A program made the position numbers and the translations under genes. The notes beneath the pieces are model-generated. The model saw only the letters and a program-made list of their open reading frames with translations. It was not told where the DNA came from and ran no database searches. From Shewanella sp. UCD-KL21 (GTDB lineage: Bacteria > Pseudomonadota > Gammaproteobacteria > Enterobacterales > Shewanellaceae), in the NCBI RefSeq assembly GCF_001957135.1, contig NZ_MPHK01000019.1:2012-66011 (forward strand): 64,000 nucleotides of DNA. Direction: 5' to 3'. Position 1 is the stretch's first letter. Every line of letters starts with the position of its first letter. Shown here piece by piece: positions 43,320-63,539 of the stretch.

Positions 43320-43743
43320 ATTATAGACCTTTATTAATACTTTAATTTTGTAATTTTTACGATGTTAATATTGGTAATACCACCATACCACACGACCCAA
43401 TTAATTAACAAGCGGATAGCATTACGAACTTCATATAATTTACTATTAATTCATACAGATAGCTTTCACACACTGCACATAGAGGTGTAGTTATCTTATT
43501 TGTGGTAGTGTGTTTTAATGAAAGATGGGGATTCACCACGTTTAAAAACTGATTTCATTTAAAAGAACGAAAATATTGAGATATAAAATAATACCTTATG
43601 ATTATAAAGATATGACTTCATTAATTTAGAGGGAGTAATTAATAATAAGTAATACTTAATAACAGTGCTTTAGACGCTATAGGCGGATGTTTATATTAAA
43701 ACAAACTCACCTATAACGAATAAAGCATATTAAGAGTTAGTGC
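43320..43743. other. Intergenic region between TonB-receptor and GH88 genes
   Basis: About 420 bp between two minus-strand genes. It holds the GH88 operator (43372-43390) and, nearer the receptor stop, two imperfect inverted repeats: CACACT... AGTGTG around 43469-43512 and TATAGG...CCTATA around 43678-43714. Neither has a T-run typical of a terminator. Confidence 0.5.
43372..43390. promoter_or_regulatory. Putative uronate operator, site 1 (GH88-DUF4861 operon)
   Basis: TGGTAATACCACCATACCA, a member of a five-site family with consensus TGGTAAkGCCACyTTACCA (TGGT and CCAC invariant). It lies 53-71 bp upstream of the GH88 start codon. The likely binder is the GntR/FadR-type regulator at 58495. 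Confidence 0.75.
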
Positions 43744-46700
43744 TTATAAAAATTTATATTTCATCGATAGCGCATATACTCGTCCATCATAATTCGTAGC
43801 ACGTGGTTGCCATTCATTATTTTGATACTCTTCATAAAGGGTATCTGTTAAGTTATATGCTTTTAAACTCACGGTGAAACTGTCAGTGAAGTTATAATAT
43901 GCAGAGGCATCTAAACGCCCAGCGGCTTTTACACTTCGATCACCTGAACCATTTGACGTTCCTACTGTTCTTAAATCATATTCAGAACGGTAGTTATAGG
44001 CTAAACGAACACCGTAGTTCTCTTGCTCGTAATAACCAATAACATTGAAGGTGTCTTCAGAAATCCCTGGCACACGAACTTCATCAGAATCATCTTGGGT
44101 TGTTTTTGAGTAGTTAAATACACCACCAAAGCCATTCCATGGATACGATAAAAAGTCTAGATTTTGCTGTATAGATAATTCATAACCTTGAACTTTGATC
44201 GTGTCTTCGATGTTAACGGTTCCACTTAGGCGTACTTCATCGCCTGCTGAAACTAAATCTGCATCACTTAAATTATCATTGCCATCTGTACGACAAGTAC
44301 CATCAGGATCTAACGTTAATGCCCCTAAATCTACCCCAGTTTCACTTAAGGCTGATGAGTCGCAAATAGATTGTGAATCAAATAAGTTTTCAATTTCTTT
44401 TTGGAATACCGCAAAACTGATTGAGCTACCTGGGCGGTTATACCATTCAAGCGATAAATCAAACGATTCAGCTTCAAATGGCTTAATACCAACCCCTGGT
44501 AAACTAACCGTAGTAAGTCCTGGAATATAATTGAAAGAGGCTGATGGATTTGCTGCGCGTAAATCCGGACGAACAAGTGACTGCCCATAGGCAAAACGTA
44601 ACAGTAAATCATCGTCTTCATCTAAGTTGATCGCTGCATTGAAGGTCGGTAAGAAATGATCATAATCATCAGGGTATACGCCCTCTTCTAAATCATTAAT
44701 ATCACCTTGGCCTGCAAGTGGTGCTCGAGATTCAGTTTTAGATTCAATATAGCGACCACCTAAATTACCGCGTAAATAGTGATCACCGAATTCGAACTCA
44801 TAATTAGCCATTAAATAGGCTGCATTGGTTTCAAGAGTGGATGAATACACTAAACCATCAGCTTGACGCCCGCCTCGAGTAATATAACCCGTTGGCGAAA
44901 ATACTGGCTGCTCACCATCATTTGATGGTGAAATTTGATTAATATCAATGGTTGATAGCAACGCATTATTAACAGAATTAAAGTCAAATGAACGCCAACC
45001 ATCTGCAGCACTTACAAAACCAGGAGCATCACCACCAAAAAATGAGTTTTCACTAACATAAGACGGATCAATCATCGCGTCTGACGTTAAAATACCAGTA
45101 GGGTCTACGCCAACTGGAGAACCTTTAGCATATTCAGAATCTAATGACGTATCAGCATAACGGTAACCAAAACGAACACTCTTGATGAAGCCCTCTTCGA
45201 AATCACGTTCAGCATTAATTTCAAATGCATTGCTTTCATGTTCAATTTTTTCATAGTTACCGGTTAGTAACATGTACAAGCCATTGGCACCTGTGGTGTT
45301 AGTCACTGCAGTATTTGCAACTTGTGTTTTAGGTACCCATGTTGCGCCATCCCAATCCATTGAAGTATCGGTTCCGGTCAAATCCATGTTGAAGTCACCA
45401 ATATCACCTTCACCAGTATAAATACTGCCATCAACGCCTGATGGACTATTTATACGTGAAGAAATAAGGACTTGAGACCACTCATTCTCAGCAGATGATA
45501 AGGTTAATGCACCATCAAGCTTCCACATCCCGATTACGTATTCAGCATCAAAAATATAAGCTTCAGCTTCTTCTTTTTGACCTTCACCGCGATTATCAAA
45601 GTAATAACGGCTATTATTAAAATCTACCCCTGATAATGTGTAAATAGGTTCACCATCGGTACCTACTTGACCTGTATCACGTGGAGCATATTCAGAACGC
45701 GGTGTAATACCAACCGTTTTTTGGTCCAAACGCATTTCAAGTTGCTCAAGGCGAGACTCATCAAGTTCACGTTTAGTGATAATGGTATTAAAACCCAGTT
45801 TTAAGGCATCAGTCGCTTGGTATTCTATACCGCCTGAAAATGAGAAACGGTTACCTGAGTTGGTTTCGCTTTGTTGGCGATATTCACCAGGCATTTGTAT
45901 AATAGCATTGTCAGGTAAATTGTTTGCAGCTTTATATTCTGCAAAAGTGCCGCTGTTATTACCTTGATCAAATTGTTGTTCTGATATGGTGTCATAAGCA
46001 TTAATACGTACAACATCACGTCTAAAAGATTGATCTGAATAAGCAAATGTACCATTGATGGCTAATTTATCTTCGATAAGGTGCTTACTACCTGATATAA
46101 CGCCTTCACCATCGACTTTATCTGCTAATTCTTCGTAACGGCCACCAAGCTGTAAAACTAACGAATCTTTTCGGCTTAATGCACCTTTTAAACCTTGGTC
46201 GATAGTACCTGAGATACCACCTTCAATCATATCCGCAGACAGTGACTTAACCACTTTTAGGCCACTAAATACTGACGGGTCATATGCACCAAAAGGGTTA
46301 CCTGGACCAAATGCGTTACCGCTAGCATTTCGGGTTGGTGTTGCGATTGCTTGACCATTTGCTGTCGTTAATACAAAACCAGAAGGTAATCCGCGTAAGT
46401 TAACACTAGATTCTCGTCGAGAACCTTCACGGTTTAATTGCACACCGGGAACGGCTTGTAATGCTTCGCCCATATCTAGAGCAGGCAAAGAACCAATGTC
46501 TTCTGCTGAAATACTATCGCTAATTTCATCAGAAGATTTTTTATCAAAAAGTGCTGATTCTAGATTTTGCTTAAATACACTTCTGACTTCTAAAACTTCA
46601 ATATCATCTTGTTTTTTTGTAACTGACTTATTTTCCGCATCGTTGACGACATCGGTAACAGCATCAGCTGCGAAGCCATTACAACAATAAAGTGCGATTA

Positions 46701-46758
46701 CACTACTCAGTAGAGTGCGTTTAAACGTCATCGACTTTTTAGGTTTAATTAAATCCAT
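43744..46758 (-). CDS. TonB-dependent receptor for oligosaccharides
   Basis: An outer-membrane TonB-dependent transporter of about 1004 aa (TIGR01782-like group used for carbohydrates). After a signal peptide (ending near CCNGFAADA) comes a plug domain (LESALFDKKSSDEISDSISAEDIGSLPALDMGEALQAVPGVQLNREGSRRESSVNLRGLPSGFV) and a beta-barrel ending in MKYKFL with terminal Phe-Leu. The ATG at 46758 (MDLIKPKKSMTF) is preferred because GGGGA lies 5 nt before it; an in-frame start four codons upstream is possible. It has its own operator 104-122 bp upstream and probably imports the uronate-containing oligosaccharide. Confidence 0.93.
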   Translation of the reverse strand: MDLIKPKKSMTFKRTLLSSVIALYCCNGFAADAVTDVVNDAENKSVTKKQDDIEVLEVRSVFKQNLESALFDKKSSDEISDSISAEDIGSLPALDMGEALQAVPGVQLNREGSRRESSVNLRGLPSGFVLTTANGQAIATPTRNASGNAFGPGNPFGAYDPSVFSGLKVVKSLSADMIEGGISGTIDQGLKGALSRKDSLVLQLGGRYEELADKVDGEGVISGSKHLIEDKLAINGTFAYSDQSFRRDVVRINAYDTISEQQFDQGNNSGTFAEYKAANNLPDNAIIQMPGEYRQQSETNSGNRFSFSGGIEYQATDALKLGFNTIITKRELDESRLEQLEMRLDQKTVGITPRSEYAPRDTGQVGTDGEPIYTLSGVDFNNSRYYFDNRGEGQKEEAEAYIFDAEYVIGMWKLDGALTLSSAENEWSQVLISSRINSPSGVDGSIYTGEGDIGDFNMDLTGTDTSMDWDGATWVPKTQVANTAVTNTTGANGLYMLLTGNYEKIEHESNAFEINAERDFEEGFIKSVRFGYRYADTSLDSEYAKGSPVGVDPTGILTSDAMIDPSYVSENSFFGGDAPGFVSAADGWRSFDFNSVNNALLSTIDINQISPSNDGEQPVFSPTGYITRGGRQADGLVYSSTLETNAAYLMANYEFEFGDHYLRGNLGGRYIESKTESRAPLAGQGDINDLEEGVYPDDYDHFLPTFNAAINLDEDDDLLLRFAYGQSLVRPDLRAANPSASFNYIPGLTTVSLPGVGIKPFEAESFDLSLEWYNRPGSSISFAVFQKEIENLFDSQSICDSSALSETGVDLGALTLDPDGTCRTDGNDNLSDADLVSAGDEVRLSGTVNIEDTIKVQGYELSIQQNLDFLSYPWNGFGGVFNYSKTTQDDSDEVRVPGISEDTFNVIGYYEQENYGVRLAYNYRSEYDLRTVGTSNGSGDRSVKAAGRLDASAYYNFTDSFTVSLKAYNLTDTLYEEYQNNEWQPRATNYDGRVYALSMKYKFL

Positions 46759-46861
46759 TACATTCCCCATTATTTTTGTTTAATTATCATTTCTATGCAT
46801 ACAGCTCCCCCTGCACATAGGTTAATTTATCACCTAAAAAACAAAAGGCAAGGCGGCCGTA

Positions 46862-46880
46862 TGGCAAAGTGGCCTTACCA
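46862..46880. promoter_or_regulatory. Putative uronate operator, site 2 (TonB receptor)
   Basis: Plus strand TGGCAAAGTGGCCTTACCA; read on the minus strand TGGTAAGGCCACTTTGCCA, matching the consensus of the family with one changed half-site base. It lies 104-122 bp upstream of the receptor start codon. Confidence 0.75.
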
Positions 46881-47160
46881 AAATACAAGTGTAACGATAA
46901 CTACATGATATTAATTAACATTTAAAGCTAAAAAAATTAACATTTATTTTCTGTTTTTAAGCCGATTTGCGTGAATTTGACATTTTTAGCTGTAAAAACG
47001 TTACTTGGGAGTGTTTAAAATGGTCAATAAAATGTATGAAGCCAGGCAATAAAAAAATGTTAAGCCCTTGAGGTAGGTATAGTCATCATTGATAATATTA
47101 ATGATTAGAATAATTAAAGGCTGAGATGAGAAGCAGATATAAGGGGAAAATTAATTGCTG

Positions 47161-47205: not shown

Positions 47206-47235
47206 ATTCATAGCTAGGCTAAAAGTTATAAAAAC

Positions 47236-47266: not shown

Positions 47267-47272
47267 TGTGTT

Positions 47273-48643
47273 TTAATCTGCAAATTGGTGCACAAGCTTA
47301 TTAAGGGTCTCTTTCGCGTCACCAAAAATCATCCGGCAATTGGGTTTAAAAAATAATGGATTATCAATACCAGCAAACCCTGTTGCCATACCGCGTTTCA
47401 ACACAAATACATTTTTAGCTAAGTCAGCATTAATGACAGGCATTCCATAAATAGGACTACCTTGCATTTCTCTGGCAGCCGGGTTTACCACATCATTGGC
47501 GCCTATCACGATAGCAACATCATAATGTGCTATCTGCGGGTTGACGTCATCCATTTCAAACAGTTGCTCATATGAAACATCGGCTTCTGCCAATAGGACA
47601 TTCATATGTCCAGGCATTCGTCCTGCGACTGGATGTATCGCATAAGCGACTTCAGCACCATTTTTTTCAAGTATCTCCTGTAGTTCTTTCATTGCATGCT
47701 GCGCTTGTGCAACCGCAAGACCATAACCAGGAATGACCAATACCGATTGAGCCGCCTCAAGTACAAAAAAAGCGTCATCAGCTGATAGCGGCTTTATTTC
47801 TCCTTCTATTTTTATGTCATTGGTGACAACAGCTTTAAAACCAGACGTTAATACATTAACCAAAGAACGATTCATCGCTTTACACATAATATTGGTTAAA
47901 ATAATCCCACTGGCGCCCACCAGAGCTCCTGCGACAATCAATAAGTTATTTTCCAAGGCAAAGCCTGCTGCACAGGCCGCTAAGCCAGAATAACTATTGA
48001 GTAATGAAATGACGACCGGCATATCCGCCCCGCCAATTGGCAATACCAACATCACGCCCATTAACAATGCCAAGCCAATGGCCAAGTAATGCCAGGTTGT
48101 TAACTCAGGCTGTGTAATGACCAAATAACCTACAACACAAATCGCAATAATTAGGGCCACATTAGCAAATGCTTGACCTTTAAATACAATGGGTCGACCC
48201 ACTATACGTTCACTAAGCTTTGCCCATGCAACAATACTCCCAGAAAACGTAACTGCGCCAATAAGTAAGGCAAGGTAACTCACAAAGAGCACAAAATAAC
48301 TCAACTGGCTTTCGCTAATAATCGCTGCGTAAGCTATCGCTAAACTTGCTAAACCTCCAACGCCATTAAATAATGATACCAGCTCAGGCATAGAGGTCAT
48401 CGCCACTTTTTTTGCTGCGAAAACGCCTATCGCAGACCCAACAACGATAGAGGCTAAAATGAGTTCAAATGAAATAATACTACGGTCGAGTAAAGTCACC
48501 ACCACCCCAACGAGCATGGCTAGCGCAGATAACAAGTTGCCCTTGCGTGCCGTTGATGGATGACCTAACAACTTTAATCCAAAAATAAATAGCAAAGTAC
48601 ATATAACGTATACTGCATTGATAAGTATAGAAAAATCATTCAT
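47273..48643 (-). CDS. pntB: NAD(P) transhydrogenase beta subunit PntB
   Basis: A 456-aa subunit of the proton-translocating transhydrogenase. The N-terminal half has about nine membrane helices (LGHPSTARKGNLLSALAMLVG, VSLFNGVGGLASLAIAYAA, SLLNSYSGLAACAAGFALENNLLIVAGALVGASGIILT), and the C-terminal dIII NADP-binding domain shows VIPGYGLAVAQAQHAMKEL, YAIHPVAGRMPGHMNVLLAEA and VVIGANDVVNPAA. It is full length. Its gene is 9 nt after pntAB, in a three-gene run inside the uronate locus. Confidence 0.95.
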   Translation of the reverse strand: MNDFSILINAVYVICTLLFIFGLKLLGHPSTARKGNLLSALAMLVGVVVTLLDRSIISFELILASIVVGSAIGVFAAKKVAMTSMPELVSLFNGVGGLASLAIAYAAIISESQLSYFVLFVSYLALLIGAVTFSGSIVAWAKLSERIVGRPIVFKGQAFANVALIIAICVVGYLVITQPELTTWHYLAIGLALLMGVMLVLPIGGADMPVVISLLNSYSGLAACAAGFALENNLLIVAGALVGASGIILTNIMCKAMNRSLVNVLTSGFKAVVTNDIKIEGEIKPLSADDAFFVLEAAQSVLVIPGYGLAVAQAQHAMKELQEILEKNGAEVAYAIHPVAGRMPGHMNVLLAEADVSYEQLFEMDDVNPQIAHYDVAIVIGANDVVNPAAREMQGSPIYGMPVINADLAKNVFVLKRGMATGFAGIDNPLFFKPNCRMIFGDAKETLNKLVHQFAD

Positions 48644-48652
48644 GTCTTTATC

Positions 48653-48928
48653 CTATCGCTTTTTAAACATGGCAAGCATGCGATCTGTAACCAAATAACC
48701 ACCCACAACATTGACTGTTGCTAGCATTACTGCAAAAGCACTTAACCATGTAGCCATCTCATTAGATTCTCCACCTGCTAAGCTCAATGCACCGACAACG
48801 GTGATACCAGATATCGCATTGGCACCAGACATCAGTGGTGTGTGCAAGGTAGCGGGCACTTTTCTAATAAGTTCAAATCCAACGAAGATGGTTAACAATA
48901 AAATTAACGATAAATAAATAGCTATCAT
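48653..48928 (-). CDS. pntAB: NAD(P) transhydrogenase alpha subunit, membrane part (PntAB/alpha-2)
   Basis: A 91-aa protein with three membrane helices (IYLSLILLLTIFVGFELI, LMSGANAISGITVVGALSLAG, FAVMLATVNVVGGYLVTDRML). This is the separate alpha-2 subunit found in three-subunit transhydrogenases (Rhodospirillum type), in contrast to the fused PntA of E. coli. Its gene starts 1 nt into the pntAA stop region and precedes pntB by 9 nt. Confidence 0.92.
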   Translation of the reverse strand: MIAIYLSLILLLTIFVGFELIRKVPATLHTPLMSGANAISGITVVGALSLAGGESNEMATWLSAFAVMLATVNVVGGYLVTDRMLAMFKKR

Positions 48929-50166
48929 TATGCTGGCTCCACAGTTTTTTGATTTAATGATTCAGCCATAAGCGGAGTCAAGGTAGTTAATTCAATCTCT
49001 GAGTCTTTAATAGATGCCACATCTAATGGTGGCAAATGAAGAAATTTACGGATGGTCTCATTGGTAATATGACCTTGATGAGTTATGACAGCGCTTTTCA
49101 GAATGTCATCGTTTAAATCAATCTTCAGTTGATTCGATTCTTTGTTCCAAAACTCACTAACCAAACTCATAAGGTTGTTAGCGTACATTTGTGAGGCATT
49201 GAGTGGAACTTCATTGGACCAATTACCAGTGCCAATAATTTTTACTCCGTAAACAGAGTTCGTTTTACCCGCTATAGAACCATCAACATTACCACCGCTT
49301 AACGCAGCCATATCGACGATGACAGATCCTGGTTTCATCAAAGCAATTGTAGATTGATTGATAAGCTGTGGCGGTTTACGACCAAATAATTGTGCTGTAG
49401 TGATTACAATATCTGATTCCGCAATGCACTTTTCTTGCGCTTGTTGTTGTATTTTAATCTGTACTTCAGTTAACGCTTGCGCATATCCTTGCGCAGTTTG
49501 ACCCGTCTCACCTAAATCAATATCTAAAAATTTTGCCCCGAGTGAACGCACTTGTTCTGCCACAATTTCTCGCGTATCAAAAGCGGTGACTGCAGCGCCT
49601 AAACGTTTCGCTGTCGCTATAGCCTGTAGCCCAGCAACCCCTGCGCCGATAATAAAAACCTTGGCTGGTTTAATCGTTCCTGCGGCCGTCATCATCATAG
49701 GCAAAATGCTATGTAGTTCAGCAATGGCTTTGGTCACCATGACGTAGCCCGCAAGGCTTGCTTGGGAACTTAAGGCATCCATTTTTTGACAACGAGTACT
49801 TCTTGGGATCATTTCCATACTCAAACTTGTAATCTGTTGGCGACATAACAAATCGGTATAACCGCTATCATTAAATGGGTCTAAAAAACTAATAACAATT
49901 TTATCGCTGATATTGTCAATATCAGCTTCAGTTAATGGATTAACTGACAAAATAACATCAGCTAACGATAAAACTTGTTGACGATCAGCTAATACACTCG
50001 CACCAGCATTAATATATTCTTCATCTGAAATATGAAGGCCTTTTCCAAGGCCTGATTCAATAATAACGTCAGCGCCTAAATGCTTGTATGCTTTTACATT
50101 TACAGGCATTAATGCGCAACGCCGCTCATTAGCTGTCGCTTCTCTAACACAGGCAATGGTTGCCAT
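48928..50166 (-). CDS. pntAA: NAD(P) transhydrogenase alpha subunit, NAD-binding part (PntAA/alpha-1)
   Basis: A 412-aa alanine dehydrogenase/PNT-family protein, the cytoplasmic NAD(H)-binding dI of transhydrogenase. It begins CVREATANERRCALMPVNVKAY and carries the Rossmann motif FIIGAGVAGLQAIATAKRLGAAVTAFDTR and the RQD-loop region MIPRSTRCQKMDALSSQASLAGY. Alanine dehydrogenase is ruled out by the adjoining pntAB and pntB. The gene lies 143 bp after kduI with a hairpin between, so it may be read partly from the kduI promoter. The ATG has GAGGAC ahead. Confidence 0.92.
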   Translation of the reverse strand: MATIACVREATANERRCALMPVNVKAYKHLGADVIIESGLGKGLHISDEEYINAGASVLADRQQVLSLADVILSVNPLTEADIDNISDKIVISFLDPFNDSGYTDLLCRQQITSLSMEMIPRSTRCQKMDALSSQASLAGYVMVTKAIAELHSILPMMMTAAGTIKPAKVFIIGAGVAGLQAIATAKRLGAAVTAFDTREIVAEQVRSLGAKFLDIDLGETGQTAQGYAQALTEVQIKIQQQAQEKCIAESDIVITTAQLFGRKPPQLINQSTIALMKPGSVIVDMAALSGGNVDGSIAGKTNSVYGVKIIGTGNWSNEVPLNASQMYANNLMSLVSEFWNKESNQLKIDLNDDILKSAVITHQGHITNETIRKFLHLPPLDVASIKDSEIELTTLTPLMAESLNQKTVEPA

Positions 50167-50309: not shown

Positions 50310-51140
50310 TTAACGCAGTGTCTTAACTTCGATATGGTCCATATCGTCAAACTCTTGGTTTTCGCCGCCCATCGCCCAGATAAAGGTATAGTTTGATGTA
50401 CCAACACCACTGTGAATAGACCAACTTGGTGAAGCTATTGCAACTTCACTATCAATAGGTAATGTACGAACTTCAGTAGGCTCACCCATTAAATGAAAAA
50501 CCTTCTCTTCTTCAGGTAAATCAAAGTACATATAGACTTCAGTACGTCTGAAGTGTGTGTGTGGCGGTTTAGTGTTCCAGACACTGCCTTTTTTAAGCTC
50601 TGTAATCCCCATCACAAGCTGACAGCTATCTACAATACCAGGACGAATAGATTGAAAAATGGTCCGTTCATTAGAGGTTTCTTGTGAGCCGAGCTCTATA
50701 AACTTGGCTTTACTTTTTGGTACATGTACCGTTTTAGTCACTCTATGAGCAGGGTATGACACTAAATAAAACTTAGCAGGCTCAGCTGAATTATTTGATG
50801 AAAATATTATTTTTTGGCTTTCTTTGGCAATATATAAACTATCGCGGTTCGCCATAGCATATGAAATACCATCAACCTCAACAGCACCTTCACCACCAAT
50901 ATTAATAACCCCAACTTCTCGGCGCTGGCAGAAATAGTCAGCAGCAAGTTCTTTATGTGTTGGTAGTTCGATTGCTTGTGCTAATGGTGTTATTCCACCA
51001 ATAACTGCGCGGTCAACATCGGTATATGTAAGGTTTATTTTACCGCCTTCAAACAAAGGAGCTGTGGTAAATGCCTCACGTAATTCGTCATTACGCATTG
51101 TTTTGTAACTTCTAATGTCTGCCGAGAACATAAAATCCAT
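50310..51140 (-). CDS. kduI: 5-dehydro-4-deoxy-D-glucuronate isomerase (4-deoxy-L-threo-5-hexosulose-uronate ketol-isomerase)
   Basis: Isomerises the 4-deoxy-hexosulose-uronate that forms from unsaturated uronic acid into 3-deoxy-D-glycero-2,5-hexodiulosonate, the KduD substrate. At 276 aa it is of usual length. Zinc-binding residues of the cupin fold are visible in PPHTHFRRTEVYMYFDL (two His and a Glu) and in PSWSIHSGVGTSNYTFIWAMGGEN. The gene has an operator 108-126 bp upstream of its start and is followed by pntAA. Confidence 0.95.
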   Translation of the reverse strand: MDFMFSADIRSYKTMRNDELREAFTTAPLFEGGKINLTYTDVDRAVIGGITPLAQAIELPTHKELAADYFCQRREVGVINIGGEGAVEVDGISYAMANRDSLYIAKESQKIIFSSNNSAEPAKFYLVSYPAHRVTKTVHVPKSKAKFIELGSQETSNERTIFQSIRPGIVDSCQLVMGITELKKGSVWNTKPPHTHFRRTEVYMYFDLPEEEKVFHLMGEPTEVRTLPIDSEVAIASPSWSIHSGVGTSNYTFIWAMGGENQEFDDMDHIEVKTLR

Positions 51141-51247
51141 AATGAATCCTTAATCATGCTTAACTAGTTTATTTTAGAGAGAACTGAGACCGCAACAGCG
51201 AGGCAACTCAAGCACTCAAAGTTATTAACAATATACTTCATGTGAAT

Positions 51248-51266
51248 TGGTAATGCCACTTTACCA
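51248..51266. promoter_or_regulatory. Putative uronate operator, site 3 (kduI-pnt)
   Basis: TGGTAATGCCACTTTACCA, the site closest to the consensus, a near-perfect inverted repeat TGGTAA-N7-TTACCA. It lies 108-126 bp upstream of kduI, in the kduI-GH2 gap. Confidence 0.8.
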
Positions 51267-53750: not shown

Positions 53751-53757
53751 CTTTTCC

Positions 53758-54582: not shown

Positions 54583-55875
54583 TTAAATCAACCCTAAAAC
54601 TTGAGGTAAAAACTCACTAATTGCAGGGAAAATTGTCACAAGAACCAATGCTAAAACCATTGCTGCATACAAAGGAAGAATAGGTTTAACGACTTGACTG
54701 ATGGGCACTTTACCAATACTACAACCCACAAATAACACGCTCCCAACTGGTGGCGTACAAAGACCTATGGATAAGTTTAAAATAACCATAATGCCAAAAT
54801 GTAAGGGTGATATACCTAGGCTTTCTGCAACAGGTAAGAAAATAGGGGTAAAGATAAGTACTGCAGGCGTCATATCCATAAACGTACCAATAACAAGCAA
54901 GGTTAAGTTTATAATTAATAATATGATTAATGGATTTTGTGATAGCGCTAATAAAGACTCGCTGATTGTTTGTGGAATTAATTCATAAGACATTAACCAA
55001 GACATTGCTGAAGATGCGCCAATCAGTAACATCACTATTGCAGTGGTGTTAACCGCCTTTAGTAAAATTGGAAAAAGGTCTCTAACACTCAATTCACGGT
55101 AAAAGACCAGTGACAATGCCAATGAATATAATACCGCTAATGCGCCGGCTTCAGTAGGCGTGAATATGCCGCCAATAATGCCACCAATAATCAAAAAGAT
55201 AAGGAACAAACTCGGCACAGCACCAAATAGTGCAGGCCAAAAAGGTTCAATACTTTCTGCAGACAGTGGTTTAATTTTCTTTTTTGTCACATAGATAAAA
55301 CAGGCAACAATTAACAGTAAAGTCACCAGTAAGCCAGGCAAGTATCCTGCAATAAACAATGCAGCAATTGATACGCCACCAGATGCTAGAGAATAAATAA
55401 TTAAGATATTACTTGGTGGGATTAACATACCAGTTGTCGCCGCTGTTACCGTGACTGCAGTACTAAATGGTTTATCGTAGCCTTCTTTTTCCATGGCTGG
55501 GATCATAAAGCCACCAATAGCAGACGTTGCAGCAACAGCCGAACCTGATATAGAGCCAAAAAGTGCGCAAGATATCACATTCACAAAAGCAAGTCCGCCT
55601 GGGAGACGCCCGACCAAAACTTTTGCAAATGCGATAAGCCTCGCCGCAATTCCGCCTTGACCCATTAAATATCCTGACAGAATAAAATAAGGTATGGCGA
55701 GTAAAGCAAAACTATCGATACCAGCAGTCAAGCGCTGCGCAATTGTGGTTAACGCTGGCAAAGTATCTATGGTGGTTAACATCGTCACTAGCGTGGCAAA
55801 AATAATCGCCAGTGCAATGGGTAAATTAATAAATAGCAGTAGAGCAAAGATGCCGAATAAGATAACAGCGGTCAT
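54583..55875 (-). CDS. dctM: TRAP transporter large permease DctM
   Basis: The 430-aa, 12-helix membrane subunit of a tripartite ATP-independent periplasmic transporter. Typical segments are FALLAIPYFILSGYLMGQGGIAARLIAFAKVLVGRLPGGLAFVNVISCALFGSISGSAVAATSAIG and LIPPSNILIIYSLASGGVSIAALFIAGYLPG, near identical in pattern to DctM/UxuM proteins. It couples Na+ entry to substrate uptake. It overlaps the dctQ stop by one base. Confidence 0.95.
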   Translation of the reverse strand: MTAVILFGIFALLLFINLPIALAIIFATLVTMLTTIDTLPALTTIAQRLTAGIDSFALLAIPYFILSGYLMGQGGIAARLIAFAKVLVGRLPGGLAFVNVISCALFGSISGSAVAATSAIGGFMIPAMEKEGYDKPFSTAVTVTAATTGMLIPPSNILIIYSLASGGVSIAALFIAGYLPGLLVTLLLIVACFIYVTKKKIKPLSAESIEPFWPALFGAVPSLFLIFLIIGGIIGGIFTPTEAGALAVLYSLALSLVFYRELSVRDLFPILLKAVNTTAIVMLLIGASSAMSWLMSYELIPQTISESLLALSQNPLIILLIINLTLLVIGTFMDMTPAVLIFTPIFLPVAESLGISPLHFGIMVILNLSIGLCTPPVGSVLFVGCSIGKVPISQVVKPILPLYAAMVLALVLVTIFPAISEFLPQVLGLI

Positions 55876-56375
55876 TATGAAAACTCCTTTGTTGCCATTT
55901 GCTGATCAGCATTAATAAAAAAATAACTGCTATATAAAAGGAATAACAACCCGCTTATAGGTAAAACGATATATATCGCAGCCATGGGAATATTTAATAC
56001 CGGCGATTCCTGCCCCAGTAACCAGGTAAGATAAACTAAATTAGAGCCACCAATAATTAATACTGATATGGCAAATACCGCGACTAAAAAGCAACATAAT
56101 TTGAAAACAAAGCGTGCTTTAGCTGCTGATAACTTACTAACAAAAAGATCAAAACCTAAATGACTGTGCTCTCTATAAGCAAATGCTCCACCTAATAGGC
56201 TTACCCATATCAATAAAAATCTAGCCACCTCTTCAGTGAAGGAACTTGGCTGAGGTAAAATGAACCTTGTGAGTACTTGCCAAGTAACATCTAACACCAG
56301 TAACGCCATCATTGAGGCTAACAATACCCTCAAAACAACATCACTTTTTAATACAGCTTGTTCGAGTAACTTCAT
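55875..56375 (-). CDS. dctQ: TRAP transporter small permease DctQ
   Basis: A 166-aa four-helix subunit (LRVLLASMMALLVLDVTWQVLTRF, FLLIWVSLLGGAFAYREHSHLGFDLFV, LCCFLVAVFAISVLIIGGSNLV, IYIVLPISGLLFLLYSSYFF) with the QPSSFTEEVARFLLIWV motif of DctQ. It overlaps dctP by 4 nt and dctM by one, so the three are translationally coupled. Confidence 0.93.
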   Translation of the reverse strand: MKLLEQAVLKSDVVLRVLLASMMALLVLDVTWQVLTRFILPQPSSFTEEVARFLLIWVSLLGGAFAYREHSHLGFDLFVSKLSAAKARFVFKLCCFLVAVFAISVLIIGGSNLVYLTWLLGQESPVLNIPMAAIYIVLPISGLLFLLYSSYFFINADQQMATKEFS

Positions 56376-57367
56376 TGTTGTTCCCTTAACGCTTTGATAC
56401 TAGCAACCAATGGCTCAAGTGCAGTCCCTTTTAGTTGTTCGTATATTGGGGCAACACTTTTTTGAAAATGAGATTTATCAGCGGTAATAACTTCTACCCC
56501 AGCTTCTTTTACTTTTTGTAATGACATTGCCGTTGATTCTGCCCACAAGCCTTTTTGGTAAATGCTGGCCTGTTCCATGGCTTGATTGAGCCAGTATTGT
56601 TGCTGTTTGCTAAGGCTATTCCACATATGTGTGCCGATCACAACCACATCTGGAATTGATGTATGTTCATCCAATAAATAATATTGACTGACTTCATAAT
56701 GTTTGGAGTAGTAAAAACTAGGGGGATTGTTCTCAGCACCTTCAACAATGCCTTGCTGTAATGCGGTATATAACTCGCCCCAACTCACTGGTGTAGCTGC
56801 GGCGCCCATGGTATTAACCATGTCGACTGCTGACTCACTATTCATCACCCGAATCTTCAAACCTTCAAGGTGTTCAGGTGTTATGACTTTGTCTTCAGTG
56901 GTGTAAAAGCTGCGGCTTCCCGCATCAAAATAGCCTAATCCTTTGATTCGATAAGCCACACCTTCATCTAACAATGTTTGCCCTATCTCACTATTAAGCG
57001 TTTGCCAGAAATGCTCATGATCGGTAAATAAATAAGGCAAACTAAAAATTTCCATTTGCGGTACAAACGCTTCTAAAGAACTTGCAGACACTTTTGTCAT
57101 TCCTAAGCTACCTATTTGAAGTAGCTCTAAAACCTCACGTTCAGAACCAAGTTGCCCAGATGGATAAATGACTAATGACATTTCTCCACTAGAAACGTCA
57201 TTAAGCACTTCATTCATATACACTACCGATTTATGAACCGGATGCTGCATATCTAAACCATGTGAAAATCGAATAGAGACTTTATGAGTTTGCTTGTCTG
57301 CACAAGATGAAAGCACAACCGTAGCCACAATGAAAAGCAGCATATGAACCATAGGAAAAAGCTTCAT
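56372..57367 (-). CDS. dctP: TRAP transporter solute-binding lipoprotein DctP (uronate type)
   Basis: A 331-aa periplasmic binding protein that delivers the monomer to DctQM. Its lipobox LSSC (VVLSSCADKQTHKVSIRFSHGLD) makes it a lipoprotein, which is common in gram-negative TRAP systems. DctP features are SSGEMSLVIYPSGQLGSEREVLELLQIGSLGM, FSLPYLF, and GLKIRVMNSESAVDMVNTMGAAATPVSWGELYTALQQGIVEGAENNPPSFY; the Arg in LKIRVM is the usual carboxylate-binding residue. The context implies uronates or their unsaturated derivative as ligand. Confidence 0.92.
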   Translation of the reverse strand: MKLFPMVHMLLFIVATVVLSSCADKQTHKVSIRFSHGLDMQHPVHKSVVYMNEVLNDVSSGEMSLVIYPSGQLGSEREVLELLQIGSLGMTKVSASSLEAFVPQMEIFSLPYLFTDHEHFWQTLNSEIGQTLLDEGVAYRIKGLGYFDAGSRSFYTTEDKVITPEHLEGLKIRVMNSESAVDMVNTMGAAATPVSWGELYTALQQGIVEGAENNPPSFYYSKHYEVSQYYLLDEHTSIPDVVVIGTHMWNSLSKQQQYWLNQAMEQASIYQKGLWAESTAMSLQKVKEAGVEVITADKSHFQKSVAPIYEQLKGTALEPLVASIKALREQQ

Positions 57368-58278
57368 ATTGCCTCCTTCAACAATGAAATTGATTTATCA
57401 ATAACCGCACCTTTATACATAATGACGGTACTGGCACAAGACTGAGCATCTACAATCGATTGGGATAAAGATTTATTTTTAGATTTAGCTGCGAGGTAGG
57501 CACCATTAAAAGAGTCACCCGCAGCAGTCGTATCGATTGGCGATAATACTGCATCGAGTGGGTAGAAATATCGTTGATTATCAATATAAACATGGCAACC
57601 ATTGTGGCCGTTTTTAACAACAACCTCATTGACGCCAGCTTGGCTCCAACGTTGGATACAATCATCAATGGAATGTTCGCCATACATTAAACATTCATCA
57701 TCAAAACTGATTAATCCTATATCTGTCAGGCTCCTCATTTTATTAAATATGCTGACAGAATGAGAAAAATCGGGCCAATTATTAGGTCGATAATTATTAT
57801 CAAAAGCGACAATGCCGCCCGCTTTTCTATATTGATTTAAAAAAGCAAATAAGGTCACTAAATCTTCGTTAGAATAAAGTGATAAGGTGATACCACTGAG
57901 GAATATGACGTCATAATGAATTAAGCTATCCAGTACTTCTGGGTAATCAGAAAGTAAAGTTCGAGCTGCTGAATTTTCACGCCAATAATTAAAATATCGC
58001 TCGCCATGCTCATCATTATTAATCACATAGAGCCCTGGAAGTTTGTTATCATTAATTTTAACTTGCTCAGTGCCAACACCTTCTTGTTGCCATTGTGAAA
58101 GCATTTGTTGACTATAAATGTCGTCACTGAGCACAGTAAAATAATCAGCATGGCCACCACAGCGAGTTAAATAGATAGCGGTATTTAATGTATCGCCGCC
58201 AAATCCCATCTTATACTGACCATTAGCTTGCTTACTTAATTCCACCATGCACTCGCCGATCACTGCTACTTTCAACAT
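57364..58278 (-). CDS. kdgK: 2-dehydro-3-deoxygluconokinase
   Basis: A 304-aa PfkB-family kinase that phosphorylates 2-keto-3-deoxygluconate to KDPG. Visible motifs are GECMVELSKQANGQYKMGFGGDTLNTAIYLTRCGG near the N-terminus, GLYVINNDEHGERYFNYWRENSAAR, and the catalytic DTTAAGDSFNGAYLAAK near the C-terminus. It is first in the operon kdgK-dctPQM-kduD-GH2 and overlaps dctP by 4 nt. An operator lies 36-54 bp upstream of its start. No KDPG aldolase gene is in the window, so the next step must be encoded elsewhere. Confidence 0.95.
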   Translation of the reverse strand: MLKVAVIGECMVELSKQANGQYKMGFGGDTLNTAIYLTRCGGHADYFTVLSDDIYSQQMLSQWQQEGVGTEQVKINDNKLPGLYVINNDEHGERYFNYWRENSAARTLLSDYPEVLDSLIHYDVIFLSGITLSLYSNEDLVTLFAFLNQYRKAGGIVAFDNNYRPNNWPDFSHSVSIFNKMRSLTDIGLISFDDECLMYGEHSIDDCIQRWSQAGVNEVVVKNGHNGCHVYIDNQRYFYPLDAVLSPIDTTAAGDSFNGAYLAAKSKNKSLSQSIVDAQSCASTVIMYKGAVIDKSISLLKEAI

Positions 58279-58313
58279 ACCCTTCCTTAGCTATTACAAA
58301 GCCCTTGCAAAAT

Positions 58314-58332
58314 TGGTCATGCCACCTTACTA
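58314..58332. promoter_or_regulatory. Putative uronate operator, site 4 (kdgK operon / regulator)
   Basis: TGGTCATGCCACCTTACTA lies between divergent kdgK (start 58278) and the GntR gene (start 58495), so one site could govern both. It is one of the two weaker matches to the consensus. Confidence 0.7.
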
Positions 58333-58494: not shown

Positions 58495-59208
58495 ATGGAA
58501 TTACAAGCAATAAAAACTGACCGACTATACGTGAAAGTGGCCGCTCAACTGTCAAAACTAGTTAGTGATGGCATAATAGTACCTGGTGACCGATTACCTT
58601 CTGAACGAGAGTTAGCTGAAAAATTAAATGTCAGTCGCCCTACAATCCGCGAGGCAATGATCGCGTTAGAATTATCAGGTATTGTAGAAATCAGAACGGG
58701 GTCAGGTATTTTCGTCAATGAGAAGAAACCTTTTATCACTTCCGAAGATAAAGGGGTTGGTCCGTTTGAGATATTACAAATAAGAGGCATCATTGAGTCA
58801 GAAGCTTGCTCAATTGCCGCAAAACATATTTCTGATGAACAAATCAAACAATTGAAAGATACGATTGTTGAAATGGAAGAAGAAGAAAAACGCCCAGATA
58901 GCTCTGAAAAAGCGGATTGGAAATTCCATAGTATTATTGCTGATGCCACTCAAAATAGTGCCATTACTTCCATTGTCAATTGGCTATGGGAATTAAGAAG
59001 TAAATCAGATTTAAGTTCTGCCTTTGCCCAAAGACTGCGTGCAGAAGGTGTCCACCCTTCTATTCAAGATCACACTGATATTGTTGAAGCATTGGAAAAA
59101 CGTGATGCAGAACAAGCTAGAATTGCGATGAAAAAACATATTGAGAATGCAACAGAAGCTGCTGCGACTTATTTTGATAATGACCCATTCAGTAATATCA
59201 AACTTTAA
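58495..59208 (+). CDS. GntR/FadR-family regulator of uronate catabolism (UxuR/ExuR-like)
   Basis: A 237-aa repressor-type protein. The winged helix is LYVKVAAQLSKLVSDGIIVPGDRLPSERELAEKLNVSRPTIREAMIALELSGIVEIRTGSGIFV; the FCD domain follows (GPFEILQIRGIIESEACSIAAKHIS, ADWKFHSIIADATQNSAITSIV, DHTDIVEALEKRDAEQARIAMKKHIENA) with Asp/His residues for metal or ligand. The start ATG at 58495 has TAAGGA ahead; reading further upstream would run through its own promoter region. It is flanked on both sides by uronate operons, and is the best candidate to bind the five 19-bp operators. The ligand is likely a uronate intermediate. Confidence 0.9.
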   Translation: MELQAIKTDRLYVKVAAQLSKLVSDGIIVPGDRLPSERELAEKLNVSRPTIREAMIALELSGIVEIRTGSGIFVNEKKPFITSEDKGVGPFEILQIRGIIESEACSIAAKHISDEQIKQLKDTIVEMEEEEKRPDSSEKADWKFHSIIADATQNSAITSIVNWLWELRSKSDLSSAFAQRLRAEGVHPSIQDHTDIVEALEKRDAEQARIAMKKHIENATEAAATYFDNDPFSNIKL

Positions 59209-59405: not shown

Positions 59406-60890
59406 TTAACATTCTAACGTTAACGTTTTTTTTAATGCTTGCTCTATACCTAGGGTATGAATCGCTGTTAAATGTTTTTCAACAGACGTGATAAATAACT
59501 CATTTTCTAATATAGCTGCAGAACAAATACCTGAATCTCGTAATATACTATGCACTTGCTTACATTCATCATCAGCATGTTGAGTTGCTAATTGAGTTAA
59601 CTCTTTTGCTAGTGGATCAACTACATTAAAATGATTACCTTCACTGTCTCGCCCTTCTAAAAAGCAGCACCATGACGCTAATACAAAGGATATCAAGCGA
59701 GACTGCTTACCATTTTTAAGTAAGGTATCTAACGGCTTCACCAGTCTTTGTGACAACTTTTGTGAGCCATCACAGGCTACTTGAGTTGTCTTATAAGGCA
59801 CCCTCGCATTAGCAAAACGCACTAAAATAGTGTCGGCATAACTTGCTAAATCAATACCCGGCACATCATCCAATGTCGCTAATAATTCCGTTTGTAATGC
59901 TTTTACAAACTGTAAGCAATATTCATCTTCAATTGCTTGATGGATATATTCATAACCTTTTAAAAAACCGATGTAAGCAAGTGTTGAATGAATGCCATTA
60001 AGTAATCGTAACTTCATATCCTCGTAGGCCTCAACATCATCAACAAATAATACACCTACACTGTCCCATTCAGGCCTATCATTGATAAAATTATCTTCTA
60101 TAACCCATTGTTTAAAGGGCTCAGTTATCACTGTACTATGATCAACTACGCCAAGCGTTTGAGATACAAAATCGATATCTTGTTGTGTGGTTGCAGGGAC
60201 TATCCTATCAACCATTGAGTTACAAAAACTGACGTTTTCTTGTATCCATTGGGCGACTTTTATATCTACTCGTTGCGCAAATTGTAATACAACCTTCTGG
60301 GTTACTCGGCCATTAGCGGGTAAGTTATCACAACTAATAATGGTTAATTTATCATCGTTAAGCATACGCACTTTACATGCCGCGACTATAAATCCAACCA
60401 ACGAGCAAGGCTGCGAAAGGTTAGCTAAATCATGTACTATCGCTGGATTAGTGAAATCGAGGTTTTCACCGGTTTTATCACGGCAATAGCCTTTCTCTGT
60501 CACCGTTAAAGTGACAACTTTAGTCTTTGATTGAGCTAAAACATTAATGACTTTATGCGGTTCTTCAGGCGCAACCAAAACATCACTAATAGCCCCAATT
60601 ATTCGCAGCTTATCCTGTTGGGAACTACAACGCTCAACCACGCTATAGAGGTTATCTTGCGGTGCCATAGCATTGCGAATATTTGCAGAACGTAAACTAA
60701 CAGCGGTAATCTTCCAACGATCTGATTGATTGAGTAAATCATCAGTAAAAACCGCTTGATGCGCACGATGAAATGCCCCGATACCAATATGAACAATACC
60801 CACTGTACTACTTTTATAGTCATAGCTTGGTTTAGTAATTCCTGACTTAACGGAATTAAGAGTATGATTAGAAAGCAATTCATCCATCAT
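59406..60890 (-). CDS. uxuB: Fructuronate reductase (mannitol dehydrogenase family)
   Basis: Reduces D-fructuronate to D-mannonate with NADH. The 494-aa protein has the N-terminal cofactor fold (VGIVHIGIGAFHRAHQAVFTDDLL), the conserved VTEKGYC, SCDNLPANGRVTQKVVLQFA and the MKLRLLNGIHSTLAYIGFLKG substrate/catalytic-Lys region (KxxxLNxxHS). Mannitol dehydrogenase and tagaturonate reductase are less likely given neighbouring uxaC and uxuA, whose products complete the glucuronate branch. It overlaps uxaC by 4 nt and is last of the three. Confidence 0.92.
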   Translation of the reverse strand: MMDELLSNHTLNSVKSGITKPSYDYKSSTVGIVHIGIGAFHRAHQAVFTDDLLNQSDRWKITAVSLRSANIRNAMAPQDNLYSVVERCSSQQDKLRIIGAISDVLVAPEEPHKVINVLAQSKTKVVTLTVTEKGYCRDKTGENLDFTNPAIVHDLANLSQPCSLVGFIVAACKVRMLNDDKLTIISCDNLPANGRVTQKVVLQFAQRVDIKVAQWIQENVSFCNSMVDRIVPATTQQDIDFVSQTLGVVDHSTVITEPFKQWVIEDNFINDRPEWDSVGVLFVDDVEAYEDMKLRLLNGIHSTLAYIGFLKGYEYIHQAIEDEYCLQFVKALQTELLATLDDVPGIDLASYADTILVRFANARVPYKTTQVACDGSQKLSQRLVKPLDTLLKNGKQSRLISFVLASWCCFLEGRDSEGNHFNVVDPLAKELTQLATQHADDECKQVHSILRDSGICSAAILENELFITSVEKHLTAIHTLGIEQALKKTLTLEC

Positions 60891-62296
60891 AGTTTGTAAG
60901 CCTGTTTAACAAGTGTGTAAGTTAAGTCGTATGCTATTTGTTTAGCTTGTGGCTCAGTTAAACGATGCTCTGCCACCAATTGTGCTAAAAAGGCGCAATC
61001 CATCCGCCTTGCTACGTCGTGTCTCGCTGGAATTGACAAAAATGCACGTGTGTCATCATTAAAACCAACAGTATTATAAAAACCCGCAGTTTCAGTTGTT
61101 TGCTCTCTAAATCTTCGCATTCCTTCAGGGCTGTCATTAAACCACCAAGCTGGGCCTAGCTTTAATGCGGGATAATGACCAGCCAAAGGCGCTAACTCAC
61201 GAGCATATGACGTTTCATCAAGGGTAAAGATAATTAGACTAAAGTTTGGATTATTACCAAATCGATTGAGTAGTGGTTTTAAGTTTTGAACATATTCGCT
61301 GGCAACCGGAATATCAGCCCCTTTATCTCGGCCAAATTTATCAAATAATTGTTGATTATGATTACGATGAACACCTGGGTGGATCTGCATGACTAACCCA
61401 TCATCTAAACTCATTAAAGCCATTTCAGTTAACATTTGAGCGCGAAAACAATCAGCATCTTCAGCGTCAAAGGTACCTGTTCGTATTTGCGTATATAACA
61501 GCTCTTTTTCAGCCTTTGATAGATCAAGTGTACGTGCACTTAAGTGTCCATGATCAGTCGATGTCGCGCCCATTTCTTTAAAATATGCACGACGTTTATA
61601 CAAACTCATTAAGTAGCTTTCAAAAGTATCTAGTGGCTCATTGGTCAATGTTGATAAGCGCACTAAATTAGCCTCAAAGCCCTCAAATTCAGGATCGATA
61701 ACATTATCAGGCCTAAAAGCGGTAATGACTTTACCTTGCCAACCACTTTCTTTAATTGTTTTATGATGCGATAAATCATCAATTGCAGACTCTGTCGTTG
61801 CAATCACTTCAATATTAAAGCGTTCAAATAAAGCCCTTGGTGTGAACTCTTTTTTTTGCAATGACGCCGTAATATGATCATAAAAAGTATCGGCCGTTAA
61901 CTCTGATAAATCTTCATGTAAATCAAAGACATTTTCAAAAACATAATCCATCCACATTCGAGTTGGAGTACCTAGAAAAAGATAGTAATGAGTCGCAAAT
62001 AAAAGCCAAATATCTTTAGGTTCGACCTGACTTTTACTACCATCAGCAGTAAAACCCAAAGCTTCCATGCTAATACCTTGACTGTGAAGCATACGCAACA
62101 AGTAATGGTCAGGTTGTATTAGCAATTCTGTCGCATTGGAGAAGCACTGGTTTTCAGCAAACCAGCGAGGATCTGTGTGTCCATGAGGGCTAACTATAGG
62201 TAAGTCTTTTATGTCAGCGTAAAGACGCTTTGCAATGTTTCGCTGCTCAATGTCTGAACTAAATAGCCTGTCCGGATGTAATAAATTCTGACTCAC
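60887..62296 (-). CDS. uxaC: Uronate isomerase
   Basis: Isomerises D-glucuronate to D-fructuronate (and D-galacturonate to D-tagaturonate). A 469-aa amidohydrolase-fold enzyme with LPIVSPHGHTDPRWFAENQ (metal-binding HxH), WMDYVFENVFDL, LVMQIHPGVHRNHN and GWNDD-like VGFNDDTRAFLSIPARHDVARR. Length and motifs are normal. It overlaps uxuB by 4 nt and follows uxuA by 15 nt, in a three-gene operon. Confidence 0.95.
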   Translation of the reverse strand: MSQNLLHPDRLFSSDIEQRNIAKRLYADIKDLPIVSPHGHTDPRWFAENQCFSNATELLIQPDHYLLRMLHSQGISMEALGFTADGSKSQVEPKDIWLLFATHYYLFLGTPTRMWMDYVFENVFDLHEDLSELTADTFYDHITASLQKKEFTPRALFERFNIEVIATTESAIDDLSHHKTIKESGWQGKVITAFRPDNVIDPEFEGFEANLVRLSTLTNEPLDTFESYLMSLYKRRAYFKEMGATSTDHGHLSARTLDLSKAEKELLYTQIRTGTFDAEDADCFRAQMLTEMALMSLDDGLVMQIHPGVHRNHNQQLFDKFGRDKGADIPVASEYVQNLKPLLNRFGNNPNFSLIIFTLDETSYARELAPLAGHYPALKLGPAWWFNDSPEGMRRFREQTTETAGFYNTVGFNDDTRAFLSIPARHDVARRMDCAFLAQLVAEHRLTEPQAKQIAYDLTYTLVKQAYKL

Positions 62297-62311
62297 AAAT
62301 CCTCCTTTTTA

Positions 62312-63493
62312 TTATTTTTTAAATTGTGAAATTGCATGAATTACGCCGCGCAACTCTGCTAGCCCTTTTAAGCGACCTAAATACGAATAACCTGGTTTAA
62401 CATCGGGTTGCGACGCTTCATCCTCTAATAAGTGTCCGTGATCAGGTCGCATAGGGATTAAAGCATCTCTATCGCCTGCTATTTTTCTTCGATTTTCTTC
62501 TGTTAATAGAGCATCTATTAAGCCAACCATATCATTATCACCATCGAGGTGTTCGGCTTCATAAAATGAACCATTAGGCTCACGAACCACATTTCTGAGA
62601 TGAACAAAATGAATTTTATGCCCAAACTCACTGACCATATCAACAAGATTATTATCAGCCCTAGCTCCAAAGGAACCAGCGCACAGTGTTAAACCATTTG
62701 CAGGACTATCAACTGCAGATAAAATTTTACGAACATCTTCTTGAGTTGATACAACTCGAGGCAACCCAAAAAGTGAAAATGGTGGATCATCAGGATGCAC
62801 ACATAAGTTAACACCACTTGTTTCTGCTACAGGGACAATTTCTGCTAAAAATGCGATAAGATTTTGTCGTAAGCCTTCTTCACCCAACTCAATGAACTCA
62901 GCAATAGCAGTTTTAATAGATTCCCGATTGTATGAACCTTCGCCGCCAGGTAAGCCCGCAATGATATTTTTTTCAAGTAAGGCGATTTGAGCTGTGCTCA
63001 TTTGTTCAAAATAATTACGAGCTTCTTCAATAAGATCTGCGTTATAACTTACTTTGGCATCTGGACGCTTAAGAATAAATATGTCGTAAGCGACAAAATC
63101 GACCATATCAAAACGTAATGCTGAGCCTGTATTCTCGAGTAAGTAGTCTAAATTTGTTCTTGTCCAATCCACTACAGGCATAAAGTTATAACATACGGTG
63201 CCAATACCCGCTTTACCGACATTAATAATGGATTGCTTATAGTTCTCAATTAACTGTAAAAAATTACCTGTGCGAGTCTTGATATCGTTATGTACCGGTA
63301 TACTTTCAACAACACTCCATGTTAATCCAGCACCTTCAATTGCTAGCTTACGAGATAACAAATTAGCCATTGGCCAAATGTCACCCGTTGGGATCTCATT
63401 CAAGGAGCTGACAATCCCTTTCGCTCCAGTTTGTGCCACTTTACGAAGAGAAATAGGATCATTTAAATCAAACCATCGCCATGTTTCTAACAT
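62312..63493 (-). CDS. uxuA: D-mannonate dehydratase
   Basis: Dehydrates D-mannonate to 2-keto-3-deoxygluconate. The ATG at 63493 gives MLETWRWFDLNDPISLRKVAQTGAKGIVSSLNEIPTGDIWP, which aligns with E. coli UxuA; any longer reading would run through the operator at 63521. The 393-aa enzyme keeps the metal-binding and active-site regions (VCYNFMPVVDWTRTNLDYLLENTGSALRFD, NLCVHPDDPPFSLFGLPRVVS, LCAGSFGARADNNLVDMV, HFVHLRNV, MRPDHGHLL). First gene of uxuA-uxaC-uxuB. Confidence 0.95.
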   Translation of the reverse strand: MLETWRWFDLNDPISLRKVAQTGAKGIVSSLNEIPTGDIWPMANLLSRKLAIEGAGLTWSVVESIPVHNDIKTRTGNFLQLIENYKQSIINVGKAGIGTVCYNFMPVVDWTRTNLDYLLENTGSALRFDMVDFVAYDIFILKRPDAKVSYNADLIEEARNYFEQMSTAQIALLEKNIIAGLPGGEGSYNRESIKTAIAEFIELGEEGLRQNLIAFLAEIVPVAETSGVNLCVHPDDPPFSLFGLPRVVSTQEDVRKILSAVDSPANGLTLCAGSFGARADNNLVDMVSEFGHKIHFVHLRNVVREPNGSFYEAEHLDGDNDMVGLIDALLTEENRRKIAGDRDALIPMRPDHGHLLEDEASQPDVKPGYSYLGRLKGLAELRGVIHAISQFKK

Positions 63494-63520
63494 TAATATC
63501 TCACTATATAATCGGTAAAT

Positions 63521-63539
63521 TGGTAAGGCCACCTACCTA
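63521..63539. promoter_or_regulatory. Putative uronate operator, site 5 (uxuA operon)
   Basis: TGGTAAGGCCACCTACCTA lies 28-46 bp upstream of the uxuA start codon. The left half (TGGTAAGGCCAC) is fully conserved while the right half is degenerate. Confidence 0.7.

Follow-up and report, generated by a model that had tools for sequence, protein, structure and literature searches.

A predicted asymmetric operator, with a FadR-type core and one outer arm, before five uronate transcription units of Shewanella sp. UCD-KL21

We analyzed a 64,000-nt stretch of the Shewanella sp. UCD-KL21 genome (contig NZ_MPHK01000019.1; hereafter the window), which carries an island of uronate genes together with a gene for a GntR/FadR-subfamily regulator (58495–59208). 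Five similar sites lie before five transcription units of this island, and it is likely that they are operators of the island's own regulator, which we predict to be a repressor. The predicted operator is conserved and asymmetric: a FadR-type core, TTGGT-N3-RCCA, is joined by one outer arm, and the whole is associated with the regulator gene and with genes of uronate use. The five operators are:

43370–43390, forward strand: operator 1 (core plus arm), before the GH88-like and DUF4861 genes and oriented opposite to the gene
46862–46882, reverse strand: operator 2, before the TonB-dependent receptor gene and in the same orientation as it
51246–51266, forward strand: operator 3, with the kduI-pnt genes 105 bp downstream
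58312–58332, forward strand: operator 4, between the divergent genes kdgK and gntR
63519–63539, forward strand: operator 5, upstream of uxuA, 28 bp from its ATG at 63493

A prior reading made from the letters alone (the sequence-only reading) had placed 19-bp sites at 43372, 51248, 58314 and 63521 on the forward strand and at 46862 on the reverse strand, and all five were confirmed. They differ from TGGTAAKGCCACYTTACCA at 2 (43372), 1 (46862), 0 (51248), 2 (58314) and 3 (63521) positions. With up to three mismatches allowed, the chance expectation for TGGTAAKGCCACYTTACCA is 0.08 per window, and five sites were reached in 0 of 100 shuffles. TGGT and CCAC do not vary among the five sites, each of which has a T before it (TTGG in all five). 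The claim that the window holds no further copy also stood: none was found within three mismatches of the 19-mer, and with a 23-column matrix the next-best window score was 19.0 (inside uxaC) versus 29.8–32.8 for the five sites. Each of the five transcription units has one site, as had been read. The units, whose operon structure we assign from strand and spacing, are GH88-like/DUF4861; the TonB receptor; kduI plus a split transhydrogenase; kdgK-TRAP-kduD-GH2 (TRAP, tripartite ATP-independent periplasmic transporter), divergent from gntR; and uxuA-uxaC-uxuB. The last site does lie upstream of uxuA, but the listed start of that gene, GTG 63532, overlaps it; UxuA models match from ATG 63493.

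Comparison with relatives covered 27 loci that hold the regulator (51–89% identity; L101 and L109 share a genome). Because their contigs have equal lengths, L006 and L007 were treated as copies of L094 and L095 and excluded; L011, at 27% identity, was also omitted. A 15-bp matrix built from the window cores (threshold 15) gave 48 non-coding matches in 102.6 kb of the window and these loci, versus 11 coding matches in 447.5 kb. One site, L018:8553, was labelled coding by a simple gene caller but treated as non-coding in the column, orientation, arm and open reading frame (ORF)-placement counts. The motif is conserved in orthologous loci, with at least one non-coding site in 22/27. Genes adjoining the relatives' sites include uxuA, kdgK, uxaC, uxuB, GH2 and TonB-receptor genes. 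Among ten further site-adjoining proteins that were searched, three were DUF4861 proteins, two GH88, one a PF05426 lyase and one a beta-helix protein.

The strict string TTGGTMAKRCCACNTNNC was matched in 46 of 395 genomes of the relatives' family (64 matches). It was matched in 19 of the 22 regulator-bearing genomes (35 matches by hand count, versus 5 in the reversed control) versus 27 of the 373 others (29 matches). The hand-tallied table of 19, 3, 27 and 346 gives a Fisher value of 5e-17, which overstates independence because the genomes are related; absence of the regulator is uncertain, since at most seven candidates per genome were scored and some regulators may be missed. Fifteen of the 35 matches lie outside the loci already read. 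Fourteen of these were read, in 12 stretches (G1083:C14:11053 was left out), and 12/14 stand before uxaC, uxuA, uxuB, GH88, TonB-receptor or lyase-like genes:

L142: a site before GH88 and TonB-receptor genes
L143: a site before the gene for a chondroitinase-B-like protein
L144: a site before a GH88-like gene
L145: a site before uxaC-TRAP, and a second before a 174-aa ORF without an assigned family
L146, L152 and L153: sites before TonB-receptor genes, with a sulfatase near the L146 site
L147 and L148: sites before uxuB-uxaC
L149: a site before uxaC-kduD-kduI
L150: a site before uxuA-uxaC
L151: a site between genes for a 471-aa protein without an assigned family and a 3-keto-disaccharide hydrolase

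The arrangement is that of a hexuronate regulon, with one predicted operator per uronate-catabolism unit, kept in relatives. Co-occurrence of motif and regulator, together with this conservation, supports the proposal that the GntR protein at 58495 is the probable binder.

Which nucleotides make up the operator was assessed in the 44 non-window sites. In columns outside the selection (core centre at column 8), column 16 was T in 40 sites and column 19 was C in 33, at 1.1 bits each; columns 17, 18 and 20 held 0.33–0.51 bits, and the best other flank column held 0.40. Usually, one half of the core is short, with the outer flank CCAAT. The other is extended, with CCAC followed by an arm T-N-N-C, typically TTACC or TTGAC. 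A core search made without regard to orientation yielded 45 matches in non-coding and 11 in coding sequence. With the window excluded, the arm followed 31/36 CCAC halves versus 6/44 CCAA halves (p = 4e-11); in coding matches it followed 0/7 and 1/15, respectively, and its background rate was 176/2800. Another 18 core matches, in L142–L153, were kept out of this test because the arm was part of the pattern that had selected those loci. Among 40 non-window sites, 25 combine an extended half that has the arm with a short half that lacks it.

The sequence-only reading had taken the whole 19 bp for an inverted repeat, and the sites are better described as an 11–13-bp FadR-type core plus one outer arm. 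Were TGGTAA-N7-TTACCA a single repeat, one dimer would contact widely spaced half-sites and the central CCA would be incidental (compare the core-only TTGGTAATACCAAT). Near-perfect palindromes of this kind are found at L099:8219 and L106:2580. Yet a central CC is present in 44/44 non-window sites, in columns that were used in selection, whereas the arm is variable. Moreover, both halves are CCAAT in 5/40 sites, three of which lack an arm altogether. We find a single-dimer palindrome distinctly improbable and rank it below the core-plus-arm model.

The arm could also be promoter sequence, a –35 box that adjoins the operator by chance and makes no contact with the repressor. Consistent with this, TTGAC arms occur in 7/13 sites oriented along the gene versus 1/15 oriented against it (p = 0.011; 2/18 for divergent genes and 1/3 with no gene in range). 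In 19 TTGAC sites, the best match to TATAAT averaged 4.1/6 at a spacing of 16–18 bp versus 2.7–3.05 at six control spacings, and two of the 19 have a perfect TATAAT. This set leaves out L009:9925 and includes reversed-core sites in L020, L103 and L106 that were added by eye; its L096 site has no listed gene in range, the gene nearest the L109 site is opposite, and L009:9756 lies between divergent genes. A PdhR-type operator in the UCD-KL21 genome, C34:13733 at pdhR, also runs directly into TTGAC, like the uronate operators of some relatives. However, the coupling of arm to CCAC persists when TTGAC arms are removed (23/28 versus 5/43), and when identical halves and the two closest loci are removed as well (16/21 versus 4/34, p = 2e-6). 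TTACC-type arms, in addition, are found in both orientations to the gene. These data make it unlikely that the arm is promoter sequence alone, while in some relatives a TTGAC arm probably does serve as a –35 box.

At the window sites, operator 1 has a weak –35/–10 pair adjoining its gene side, and operator 3 a promoter-like match with the –35 inside the operator; neither exceeded shuffles in the promoter scan. At uxuA, reading by eye found TTGMTG-17 bp-TTAAAT adjoining the operator in the window, L005 and L094, which would set the operator on the uxuA start site.

The whole UCD-KL21 genome (4.6 Mb, 84 contigs) was scanned for many matches at unrelated genes, which would speak against a dedicated regulon. 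No strict copies were found outside the cluster: the only matches to TGGTNNNRCCACNNTNCYA were at four of the five sites (the fifth departs from the string). When up to three mismatches were allowed, the 20-mer TTGGTMAKRCCACYTTACCA matched 17 places, versus 2 for the reversed control. These are the five sites and 12 others, eight of which are within ORFs. Three of the four outside ORFs resemble PdhR operators; the fourth is C1:75833. A relaxed 12-base core was uninformative in this one genome, with 61 matches versus 41 for the reversed control, among them one at C8:100702. Extra sites beside a lyase or KDPG (2-keto-3-deoxy-6-phosphogluconate) aldolase had been named as further support. In this genome, no TTGGTMAKRCCACYTTACCA match lies beside the two PF01081 aldolases or the three PF05426 matches, but relatives do have sites before lyase-like genes, namely those for a PF05426 protein in L103 and the chondroitinase-B-like protein in L143. 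Contig C8 carries a separate cluster at ∼80.9–97.3 kb (L155–L158) that has a KDPG aldolase of its own in addition to the three PF05426 matches, and no operator copy occurs there among the TTGGTMAKRCCACYTTACCA matches.

The PdhR-like places raise the question of whether the island sites are in fact targets of PdhR, a paralogue with the same left half in its operators. They are:

C34:13733: PdhR-type operator just upstream of pdhR-aceE
C67:155733 and C67:156036: PdhR-type operators between pflB and focA
C19:22087: PdhR-type operator upstream of oadA

Before pdhR-aceE and between pflB and focA these read ATTGGTAAGACCAAT. The left half ATTGGT and the N3 spacing are common to both kinds of site, and one PdhR-type operator adjoins TTGAC. 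Unlike the island sites, PdhR-type operators are symmetric, with an ACCAAT right half and no CCAC half, and stand at pyruvate-metabolism genes. Across genomes, the uronate motif follows the island regulator. That regulator scores 91.3 bits on the PdhR model (NF007001, cut-off 330) versus 415.8 for the C34 protein. PdhR as the binder is thus scarcely credible, and we reject it on the model scores and the motif–regulator co-occurrence.

The regulator itself has a GntR winged helix-turn-helix domain at its N-terminus (PF00392, 75.0 bits) and an FCD domain at its C-terminus (PF07729, 94.1 bits; both scored on the longer ORF from 58387), the domain make-up of the FadR subfamily of the GntR family. 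It falls below the equivalog cut-offs for ExuR (NF008571, 154.8 versus 396 bits) and UxuR (NF007588, 135.7 versus 442 bits). Its closest named relative, at 89% identity, is from Pseudoalteromonas haloplanktis, a record outside the family, order and class samples. Few genomes carry the regulator: a search at E ≤ 1e-60 found it in 1/152 family genomes (UCD-KL21 itself), 6/394 of the order sample and 1/369 of the class sample. By its sequence it is an ordinary family member, with predicted docking sites that are unusually lopsided. Building on the core-plus-arm model, we tentatively raise the possibility that it reads two kinds of half-site, short ATTGGY and extended (outer arm plus GTGGY). Their pairing, and whether the arm doubles as a –35 box, may set the tightness of each promoter and keep these operators apart from those of PdhR.

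Several findings weigh against assigning the five sites to this regulator, over and above the limits given with the co-occurrence counts. The support is comparative. The TGG-N5-CCA spacing, claimed from the window as FadR-type, is kept, but at the place of AC in the pattern published for the FadR subfamily, GT-N3-AC (or N2), GC stands in 4/5 window sites; AC is present in 1/5 window sites and 4/44 others, with GC in the rest. Five of the 27 loci (L095, L010, L100, L108 and L110) have no site at threshold 15, although the genomes of L100, L108 and L110 carry sites elsewhere. No strict match was found in 3/22 regulator-bearing genomes. Overall, the reversed control had roughly 100 matches by hand count, more than the 64 of TTGGTMAKRCCACNTNNC, and it is only in regulator-bearing genomes that TTGGTMAKRCCACNTNNC is in excess. 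For three of the ten searched proteins, a part in uronate use is not apparent: the L101 protein is a 6-phosphogluconate dehydrogenase, that of L111 a nickel-insertion protein, and that of L102 has no assigned family. At none of the five window sites did the promoter scan give a match better than chance. Finally, the –10 signal at TTGAC sites comes mainly from spacing 16 (mean 2.89, versus 2.05 at 17, 2.11 at 18 and up to 2.53 at other spacings).

Among known systems, the ExuR/UxuR regulons of Gammaproteobacteria are similar in domain architecture, in supplying the best-matching NCBIfam models and in the genes uxaC, uxuA, uxuB and kdgK. They differ in that the island regulator scores far under their equivalog cut-offs, and the predicted regulon here adds a TonB receptor, GH2, a GH88-like protein, a TRAP transporter and the transhydrogenase. 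Operators of ExuR are described as palindromic with GT-N3-AC, and those of UxuR with N2 (PMC4494728), whereas the predicted operator here is asymmetric, with CCAC and an arm. In Rhodobacteraceae, a GntR-family UxuR is predicted to control the glucuronate pathway from UxaC to KDG (2-keto-3-deoxygluconate) (PMC5507952). It resembles the island regulator in family and pathway, a likeness drawn without its operator motif, and differs in lineage and in an ATP-binding cassette transporter. A weaker extra box 7–12 nt from the core centre was described by Suvorova et al. (2015) for 13 FadR-subfamily groups (PMC4494728). The arm, in columns 16–20 and thus 8–12 nt from the centre, falls in this range, which fits an additional half-site. 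Section 17 of that paper makes no mention of a link between the arm and the type of half-site next to it, CCAC versus CCAAT (PMC4494728).

Another FCD regulator, E. coli NanR, has an operator of more than two boxes, the direct repeat (GGTATA)3, and a 32-residue N-terminal extension for cooperativity (PMC8012715). The five sites contain no GGTATA direct repeats. Most of the extension is missing from the island regulator, as its residue 14 is the first to align, to NanR residue 35. NanR-like triple binding was rejected on these two grounds.

In the mechanism that we propose, a repressor dimer would occupy the two core halves, and the arm would provide affinity or contact a further subunit. At uxuA, and probably at kdgK, the dimer would cover a start site immediately after the –10 box; in relatives, it would cover the –35 box of TonB-receptor, uxaC and uxuB promoters. 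Occlusion of this sort would keep the five transcription units off until uronate arrives, when an acid intermediate may bind the FCD domain and release the repressor. The KduI/KduD and UxaC/UxuB/UxuA branches both end at KDG, which for this reason is the likeliest ligand. Only one site lies between kdgK and gntR and would act on both genes, so that gntR may be autoregulated.

With such an operator, marine uronate-polysaccharide islands gain a defined regulon logic, for which other genomes can be scanned. It connects the DUF4861, transhydrogenase and GH88-like genes, whose roles are unknown, with uronate use, and it offers a sharp, testable rule of operator asymmetry in a very common regulator family that is usually modelled with symmetric sites. 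Literature searches with four operator strings gave no title on this regulon among the 15 listed of 18 papers, and searches for AusR, UxuR/Alteromonadales and hexuronate/Alteromonas returned no title or abstract on the motif; a RegPrecise entry is possible.

The genes of the island are:

40710–41648, reverse strand: DUF4861 (BT3233-like) protein, adjoining the GH88-like gene (PF16153)
41670–43319, reverse strand: GH88-like protein (PF07470, 23.9 bits, below the Pfam cut-off of 26.6)
43744–46770, reverse strand: TonB-dependent receptor (TIGR01782, 491.7 bits, cut-off 310)
47273–50166, reverse strand: pntB, the C-terminal part of pntA and the N-terminal part of pntA, a split NAD(P) transhydrogenase (profile matches)
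50310–51140, reverse strand: kduI, 5-dehydro-4-deoxy-D-glucuronate isomerase (NF002091, 388.9 bits, cut-off 250)
51330–53783, reverse strand: GH2 beta-glucuronidase/galactosidase-like protein (profile matches)
53758–54531, reverse strand: kduD (TIGR01832, 334.4 bits, slightly below the 338.85 cut-off)
54583–57367, reverse strand: TRAP transporter DctM, small permease (55875–56375, named by position only) and DctP
57364–58278, reverse strand: kdgK, KDG kinase (NF052444, 326.2 bits, below the 400 cut-off)
58495–59208, forward strand: gntR, the FadR-subfamily (GntR plus FCD) regulator of 237 aa (PF00392, PF07729; nearest NCBIfam model ExuR)
59406–60890, reverse strand: uxuB, fructuronate reductase-like (PF01232/PF08125; NF011611, 392.7 bits, below the 603 cut-off)
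60887–62296, reverse strand: uxaC, glucuronate isomerase (NF002794, 569.3 bits, cut-off 387)
62312–63493, reverse strand: uxuA, mannonate dehydratase (TIGR00695, 484.8 bits, cut-off 199.55)

By its score, the GH88 label given in the sequence-only reading is weak, and the protein had no match in PHROGs. DUF4861 genes also stand beside operators in L019, L020 and L094, a recurrence that suggests a role for DUF4861 in uronate-polysaccharide breakdown. The split transhydrogenase (PntA in two pieces, and PntB) comes after kduI, under operator 3, and pntA and pntB are also present in the regulator loci L094 and L098.

The cluster lies between recR (37421–38020) and ybaB, which is just past the right end of the window and is followed by dnaX. 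Here, recR and ybaB are ∼26 kb apart (38021–64000 and just beyond), with the uronate cluster in between. Within the stretches fetched from 24 relatives, the two genes lie close together in 19 (within 24 bp in 17, ∼290 bp apart in two), and in the other five ybaB is not within 1.5 kb of recR. Because ∼26 kb splits the pair here, and the genes are close in 19/24 relatives but not in five, the gap may be an insertion hot spot. A gene for a DUF3127 protein (39840–40352, forward strand) is found near the left edge of this stretch.

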